Assembly (NCBI GenBank): GCA_947626395.1
Contig: CANQRU010000009.1
Location: 1-64,000 of the forward strand
Length of the DNA: 64,000 bases
DNA from: an uncultured Lachnospiraceae bacterium
GTDB lineage: Bacteria; Bacillota; Clostridia; Lachnospirales; Lachnospiraceae
Direction of reading: 5' to 3'
Each line of letters begins with the position of its first letter. Position 1 is the stretch's first letter. The position numbers and the translations under genes are program-made. The notes beneath the pieces were generated by a model. It worked only from the letters and a program-made list of their open reading frames with translations, had not been told where the DNA came from and made no database searches. This document shows positions 11,027 through 12,403 of this stretch, piece by piece.

Positions 11027-11053
11027 TGTCGTAGAGTGCCATACTCTAAGACA
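11027..11053 (+). repeat. Left inverted recombination-like site
   Basis: tgtcgtagagtgccatactctaagaca. Matches the reverse complement of 12377-12403 at 26/27 positions. Confidence 0.9.
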
Positions 11054-11067
11054 GCCTCCCGGCTGCT

Positions 11068-12255
11068 TTACCAGCCCGCGGCCAGCAGCACCGACAGCTT
11101 CTCCATATTTCTGCGCTTCAGCTCCATCGTCGGGTGCACGTAACGGTTCAGCGTGATATTGACATTCGCGTGTCCCAGGATCTCGCTCAGGCTCTTCACG
11201 TCGAAATCCATCTCCACGCACCGGGTCGCGAACGTATGACGGAGCGCGTGGAAATTCACCTTTTCGATCCCCGCCTCTCTAAGCACCTTCGCGAAATGCC
11301 GCTCCATCGTCCGCGGTTCCATGTAGGCGTCCTCCCGCCCGGTCAGGATATAGCCTTTCCGCTTCCCGCGGAAGGTGAACAGGATCTTATTCAGCTCCCG
11401 CGGGATCGGGATCGTCCGGACGGAGCCGGCGCTCTTGGGCGGCGTGATGATGATCTTCGTCTTCCGCTCCGGATCGTCCTTCGTCTGGATGCGCTGCATC
11501 GTCCGGCAGACGGAGACCGTCTGCTCCTGGAAGGAAATGTCTTCCCATTTAAGGGCGCAGATCTCTCCCAGGCGCAGCCCGGTGAACATGCAGATCAGGA
11601 TCCCCAGGTTCCGGTCGGTGAGATGGGCGCGGAGATGCTGGTACAGCCTGTCCTGCTCCTTCCGGGTCAGGACTTTCATTTCCTTCGGTTCCTTTTTCAC
11701 AATGACAGACGCAATATTGCACGGCATGAACGCCCCATGGTCTGCGGCGTAGGCGAATACGCGCCGCAGGACGGACATGATATCGGCGACAGTCTTGGCC
11801 GAAAGTCCGCTCTGCTTCCGGCCGCCGGCGGAACGCATCCTGCCGCAGAACAGCTCTACCGTCTCCCGGTTCAGAACGTCCCACCGGATCCCGCCCAGCT
11901 CCGGGACGATGTAGGAGTACAGCAGGTTCCAGTATTTCATATAGGTAGATTCCTTGATCTGGTATCTCACGGCGTTCAGCCATTTCCGCGCGTACTCCGC
12001 CAATGTGGCCGCGGGCTCCGCGGATGCGGGCGGCGCCGGGAGCGGCAGCGTCTCTGCGAACTCCGGCGGCTTCAGGCGCGGCGATGTCTCCGCGGGCTTC
12101 GGCGGCTTCGGACGCGGCGATGTCCCCGCGGGCTCCGCCGCTTCCGGCCCGCAGGCCAGAAGGACGACCCGGCCGTCTTCCGCCTGTTCGACGACGTATT
12201 GTCCCATACCTTCTCTCTCCATCTCCAGATAGATCTTCCTTCCTTTTTCCAACAT
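11068..12255 (-). CDS. Tyrosine recombinase/integrase (phage integrase family), candidate DNA invertase
   Basis: Catalytic motifs FTGLRLGEICALKWEDI, FHALRHTFATRCVEMDFDVKSLSEILGHANVNITLNRYVHPT; SAM-like N-terminal core-binding domain LAEYARKWL...; RBS aaggagg upstream. Confidence 0.95.
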   Translation of the reverse strand: MLEKGRKIYLEMEREGMGQYVVEQAEDGRVVLLACGPEAAEPAGTSPRPKPPKPAETSPRLKPPEFAETLPLPAPPASAEPAATLAEYARKWLNAVRYQIKESTYMKYWNLLYSYIVPELGGIRWDVLNRETVELFCGRMRSAGGRKQSGLSAKTVADIMSVLRRVFAYAADHGAFMPCNIASVIVKKEPKEMKVLTRKEQDRLYQHLRAHLTDRNLGILICMFTGLRLGEICALKWEDISFQEQTVSVCRTMQRIQTKDDPERKTKIIITPPKSAGSVRTIPIPRELNKILFTFRGKRKGYILTGREDAYMEPRTMERHFAKVLREAGIEKVNFHALRHTFATRCVEMDFDVKSLSEILGHANVNITLNRYVHPTMELKRRNMEKLSVLLAAGW

Positions 12256-12317
12256 CGCATGGACCTCCTTCTCCGATATAACGCGTTGAAATTTTATTGT
12301 TTTTTAATTAATTCATA

Positions 12318-12346
12318 TTGACAAATTCTTCGCCCTTTTGTATAAT
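12318..12346 (+). promoter_or_regulatory. Perfect sigma-70/A consensus promoter inside the invertible segment
   Basis: TTGACA (12318-12323), 17-nt spacer, TATAAT (12341-12346), with an AT-rich upstream stretch. Confidence 0.85.
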
Positions 12347-12376
12347 CCAGTTAACAAGGCGGGAAGGCTTTGGGCA

Positions 12377-12403
12377 TGTCGTAGAGTATGGCACTCTACG
12401 ACA
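12377..12403 (-). repeat. Right inverted recombination-like site
   Basis: tgtcgtagagtatggcactctacgaca. Arms are the same as at 11027-11053 and the central 5 nt (atggc) is the reverse complement of the left centre (gccat). Confidence 0.9.

Follow-up and report, generated by a model that had tools for sequence, protein, structure and literature searches.

A predicted autonomous invertible promoter with an internal tyrosine integrase beside a giant surface-protein operon in an uncultured Lachnospiraceae bacterium

We analysed a 64,000 nt stretch of DNA (the window) from an uncultured Lachnospiraceae bacterium, corresponding to positions 1 to 64,000 of contig CANQRU010000009.1 in GenBank assembly GCA_947626395.1. 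Window positions 11027-12403 hold a 1,377 bp cassette in which a tyrosine integrase gene and an outward-facing promoter are enclosed by two inverted, near-palindromic 27 bp sites; to its left lie the genes for a 186 amino acid protein and a giant surface protein. We consider it very probable that this segment works autonomously as an invertible promoter. The locus contains the following features.

977..10306, minus strand: surface protein of 3,109 amino acids, with six FctA/Spy0128-type isopeptide domains and a SpaA domain
10419..10979, minus strand: 186 amino acid protein, first gene of the predicted controlled operon and member of a multi-copy family
11027..11053: left (gene-side) recombination site, TGTCGTAGAGT-GCCAT-ACTCTAAGACA, centre GCCAT
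11054..12376: invertible interior, 1,323 bp between the sites, with like architecture in about 30 relatives
11068..12255, minus strand: tyrosine recombinase of 395 amino acids (Phage_integrase, PF00589, E 7e-30)
12296..12324, minus strand: possible weak promoter for the integrase gene, a consensus match (9/12) alone
12318..12346, plus strand: promoter TTGACA-N17-TATAAT, 12/12 consensus, facing out through the right site
12376..12414, plus strand: right-site hairpin and T-run (right site plus TTTTCTTTTCT), intrinsic-terminator-like
12377..12403: right recombination site, TGTCGTAGAGT-ATGGC-ACTCTACGACA, centre ATGGC

The two sites are reverse complements at 26 of 27 positions, with their 5 nt centres in opposite orientation, and the integrase gene is the only gene between them, there being no transfer genes and no cargo. 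The integrase retains the TGLRLGE, HALRH, LGHA and NRY motifs and is by this measure intact; its best PDB matches (6en0, 6emy and 6emz, E 5e-17) are titled 'Int protein', which we take to be Tn1549 Int. An initial annotation of the window had described the near-palindromic arms with opposed centres, a full recombinase gene inside the segment and an exact rightward promoter about 30 bp inside the right site, and all of these were confirmed, the promoter-to-site distance being 30 nt. Its figure of approximately 80 bp from promoter to start codon after inversion needs correction: computed for the inverted segment (the ON form), the -10 element would lie 104 nt from the ATG of the 186 amino acid protein gene. 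The same annotation had raised the possibility of an operon promoter independent of the segment; a search of the minus strand from 10979 to the left site turned up nothing resembling a sigma-70 promoter.

The 186 amino acid protein had no match in Pfam, NCBIfam or PHROG, and its low-confidence predicted structure (predicted local distance difference test score, pLDDT, 54) gave no meaningful PDB match. Besides the window copy the same genome contains 12 further matches to this family, which has a conserved C-terminal motif (FLVRIICRQHNSWQGEVCW...FRSTLELM) and whose copies precede giant surface proteins carrying FctA, DUF11, Cna_B, SpaA or comparable domains, whether a cassette is present or not. 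The 3,109 amino acid protein is signal-like at its N terminus, resembles a sorting signal at its C terminus (APMTGD), and presumably acts as an adhesin. Cassette targets are of two kinds, namely giant surface-protein operons led by the 186 amino acid protein, and polysaccharide operons led by the 186 amino acid family or by LoaP-like antiterminators. The first genes at the C4, C21 and human-gut loci described below scored 113.5, 118.2 and 88.7 bits, respectively, and are named LoaP-like only because they fall below the NCBIfam LoaP cut-off of 125.

The 3.46 Mb source assembly carries four cassettes, C9 (the window cassette), C15, C21 and C4, as well as a solitary site on C3 (C3:97815). A stricter core pattern run against the whole genome hit nine places, exactly the cassette and solitary sites, and a reversed control pattern hit none. 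Integrases of C15, C21 and C4 are about 79% identical to the window integrase over the matched stretch, and the centres differ by cassette (GCCAT, ACCAT, ATCCC and ACACC, with GGCGT at the solitary C3 site). The C9 and C15 promoters point away from the 186 amino acid protein gene and giant surface protein (the OFF arrangement); at the polysaccharide operons led by LoaP-like genes the C21 promoter points away and the C4 promoter points toward the operon.

Integrase relatives were drawn from the genus, the family, genome contigs and metagenomes, the related genomes being uncultured Lachnospiraceae metagenome-assembled genomes (MAGs) mostly named 'Lapin'. A script that paired flanking sites recovered 39 cassettes, reduced to 33 once near-identical human-gut copies were removed: 26 from the genus, one (L041) from another Lachnospiraceae MAG and six of more distant origin. 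Left and right centres were identical in 33/33 of these, compared with 1.1% of random pairs from different cassettes, and left-right site mismatches were confined outside positions 8-19. In every one of the 26 genus cassettes the promoter matches 11-12 of 12 consensus positions with a spacer of 17, and leaves the 5′ end of the integrase gene at 28-36 nt from the site. A target was recognised for 26 cassettes (25 from the genus plus L041), of which 21 were assembled OFF and five ON. The notion that each genome keeps its centres different from one another was set aside, as 0/48 pairs were equal against about one expected, a difference that is not significant. Integrase-less mini-invertons of 337-572 bp (L194, L196, L197, L202, L205 and L207) keep the sites, the inverted centres and the outward promoter, and the genomes that contain them also carry autonomous cassettes. 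Several have a repeated GCCGTCA, which we rejected as a candidate integrase arm site given that most autonomous cassettes are missing the motif.

Orthologous loci of relatives were recovered in opposite orientations. L161 (ON) and L162 (OFF), a 186-type locus before genes identified by Pfam as polysaccharide genes, share the centre TGTCC and have flank identities of 94.8% (1,258 bp) and 86.7% (709 bp); C4 (ON) and L151 (OFF) share the centre ACACC, with flank identities of 90.2% (1,120 bp) and 84.1% (3,497 bp). At orthologous loci C4 is likewise opposite to G308:C91 and G313:C45 (both OFF), as are G310:C66 (ON) to G313:C45 and L155 (ON) to L159 (OFF). In human-gut contigs, where the switch adjoins a LoaP-like gene followed by polysaccharide genes, comparison of L051 and L053 with L052, L054 and L058 revealed swapped flanks in which the outer half-sites were exchanged and the inner halves stayed with the segment; the crossover therefore fell inside GAGTATCACACT. 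Judged from these assembled sequences, inversion occurs in the cassette family. The initial annotation had proposed a self-contained inversion switch, OFF as assembled, that controls the small gene and the giant protein, and this proposal gains support from the opposite orientations, the core crossover and the promoter, sites and target side conserved in relatives. A single fixed orientation across related genomes, which it had raised as a counter-case, was not what we saw at the orthologous loci of relatives. That annotation is extended here by the paralogs, the polysaccharide targets led by LoaP-like genes, the terminator formed by site and T-run, and the integrase-less forms. Separately, the contig end of L175 (G319:C134, centre GGCGT) falls within a recombination site, as might fit a sample containing both orientations.

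Several observations weigh against this interpretation for the window cassette, which was assembled OFF and at which inversion is predicted. Its inverted form was not observed, and because orthologs of its PGA_cap neighbour in six genomes have no site, integrase or 186 amino acid protein gene in a flank of 0.2 to 10 kb, no orientations can be compared directly at this locus, for which no ortholog carrying a cassette was found. The window switch may flip rarely or be locked, given that C9, C15 and G312:C23, the closest 186-type cassettes, are all OFF in their assemblies. One arm position of the gene-side site is mismatched, and the promoter match is weaker (9-10/12) in the family-level relatives L064 and L066. 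The existence of mini-invertons implies trans action by some integrases, so that the internal integrase is maybe not the sole enzyme to flip the window cassette. That the cassette is a relic, locked OFF at this locus, is nevertheless highly improbable in our estimation: the OFF assembly and arm mismatch would fit such a reading, as would a related 186-type cassette (L150, G313:C192) that has kept its gene-side site, has lost its promoter-end site and is probably locked OFF, but at the window the integrase and its catalytic motifs are intact, the promoter is exact and the centres are perfectly matched, and L161/L162 caught a 186-type locus in both orientations.

The sites differ in what lies outside them. 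As RNA, the window right site forms a 12 bp hairpin that folds at about -17 kcal/mol and runs into TTTTCTTTTCT, whereas the left site read outward continues into CCATCCCG, without a T-run. Across 26 scored cassettes the eight bases outside the site contain 5-7 T on the non-gene side (26/26) and 0-4 on the gene side, with no overlap (Wilcoxon P = 7e-6, related loci not being independent). Because a T-run always follows the non-gene-side site, that site appears to double as a terminator when the cassette is OFF, one and the same palindrome probably acting as intrinsic terminator in the OFF state and as a hairpin that is read through in the ON state. The rightward OFF promoter described in the initial annotation stands, but its transcript need not run as far as the terminator at 12714-12760, as transcription is predicted to end at the right site. 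These terminator-like non-gene-side sites could also suggest that the inverted arms are terminators around the integrase gene with no recombination at all, a reading to which we assign almost no credence: the half-site exchange in relatives already contradicts it, and the opposite orientations, the matched, inverted and variable centres and the gene-side sites lacking a T-run all speak against it.

Under the invertible-promoter model, the internal integrase would bind the near-palindromic arms of both 27 bp sites and exchange strands across the 5 nt centre (approximately 7 nt at most if the adjoining T and A are counted), inverting the segment; the centre, itself inverted between the ends, would make partner sites yield inversion. 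In the OFF state the promoter would fire rightward into the right site, where the hairpin and T-run would end transcription at once. In the ON state it would read to the left, across the gene-side site and its outer flank free of a T-run, into the 186 amino acid protein gene and the giant surface protein, making the phenotype phase-variable with the window integrase as the presumed actor.

A different account would make the cassette chiefly a small mobile element that moves among surface operons by excision, insertion or cassette exchange, inversion being a by-product. The solitary C3:97815 locus matches the cassette-bearing G312:C23 on both flanks (788 bp on the gene side and 452 bp on the T side) and shares its centre GGCGT, which points to a cassette lost or gained or, with lower probability, to a collapsed assembly. 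The 186-type cassettes are scattered through the integrase tree, mixed with LoaP-type ones, and at the orthologous locus the C4 integrase shares only about 69-70% identity with its G310:C66 and G313:C45 counterparts, although the T-side flanks there have about 88% DNA identity, implying two cassette lineages at one locus in different species. We nonetheless regard this account as unlikely. Centres are always inverted between the ends, favouring inversion over excision; plain mobility leaves the conserved promoter, target side and T-run unexplained; the cassette carries an integrase and no other cargo, and no relative turned up in viral contigs; and cassette swaps could also arise by homologous recombination of the flanks.

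Additional elements accompany the switches. In L036, L038 and the genus loci L188-L215, a leader of approximately 75 nt (ACAAAACCtGGAtGgGAcTCGTGAGCCT...GGGGTtATAaCgGCCACAgc) is conserved between the switch and LoaP-like genes, at 27 of the 28 places found; it lies 128-153 nt downstream of the site and is possibly an antiterminator-recruiting RNA. Rfam gave no match for the leaders or the window, its sole hit being a tRNA in L038. In an alignment, LoaP-type leaders also share a conserved -10-like TATTATACTTC about 60 nt past the site, a possible second, switch-independent promoter judging from its sequence, which is not present in the short 186-type leader. Outside the cassette, window positions 12672-12711 hold a palindromic repeat of about 40 nt, similar to repetitive extragenic palindromic elements, and genomes of the genus contain dozens of partial copies of it.

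The Salmonella Hin flagellar switch (H segment) has a serine recombinase gene and an outward promoter inside an invertible segment. The window cassette shares this plan of recombinase gene and promoter between two inverted sites, but its enzyme is a tyrosine integrase (Pfam Phage_integrase) and its family has palindromic terminator-like sites and several cassettes per genome. Tn916/Tn1549 integrases, the closest solved structures to the window integrase, use a short variable crossover region, as here; in contrast to those elements the cassette has no transfer genes and its end sites are inverted, not direct. As in invertons, inverted repeats flank the segment and an internal promoter is placed for the flanking gene, on sequence evidence only, and both orientations occur at orthologous loci of relatives, not at the window locus. 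Promoters in invertons of gut bacteria, such as those before UpxY genes in Bacteroides, likewise flip before polysaccharide operons led by NusG-type antiterminators or before surface proteins. In Bacteroides many sites are served in trans by Mpi, whereas the window cassette encodes its recombinase within the segment. Gut invertons are compiled in the hCom2 catalogue (PMC11892184); 32 of 33 members of its group 139 belong to Clostridia and a group of tyrosine recombinases lies near them, and this group 139 may overlap or include the window cassette family. C. difficile RecV controls the cwpV and flagellar switches, is encoded elsewhere and serves several (PMC5903667). Tyrosine recombinase, surface targets and Firmicutes host are features in common with the window cassette; RecV sits away from its switches and the window integrase inside its segment, although integrase-less minis may be served in trans. 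Thus the Hin plan and invertible surface-gene promoters, including those before NusG-type antiterminators, are already known, and the T-run and probable terminator role of the non-gene-side site are new here. In the open-access literature searched we found no promoter switch combining a tyrosine integrase within the segment, site-terminators, private centres and minis, which is no proof of absence.

Tyrosine recombinases require homology in the overlap. Because of this, and because centres pair within cassettes, the centre could serve as a private address, and a centre that differs per cassette should hinder recombination with other cassettes. We tentatively extend this to a modular, genus-wide switch system, a reading that is plausible but somewhat less likely than not, in which cassettes would be interchangeable, the palindrome would be both recombination site and OFF-side terminator, the private 5 nt overlap would confine each cassette to its own sites despite similar arms and recombinases, and autonomous and integrase-less forms would share an enzyme pool in a battery of independent surface switches. 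What emerges is a clearly delimited, testable phase-variation module in Lachnospiraceae, a small inversion switch built around a single gene and with exchangeable addresses, which is tied both to LoaP-like polysaccharide operons and to giant surface proteins of pilin-like type. It poses the testable question of whether a few central bases can keep many similar invertible elements of one genome apart, and if the modular reading is true, one genome would run many independent surface switches from shared enzymes.
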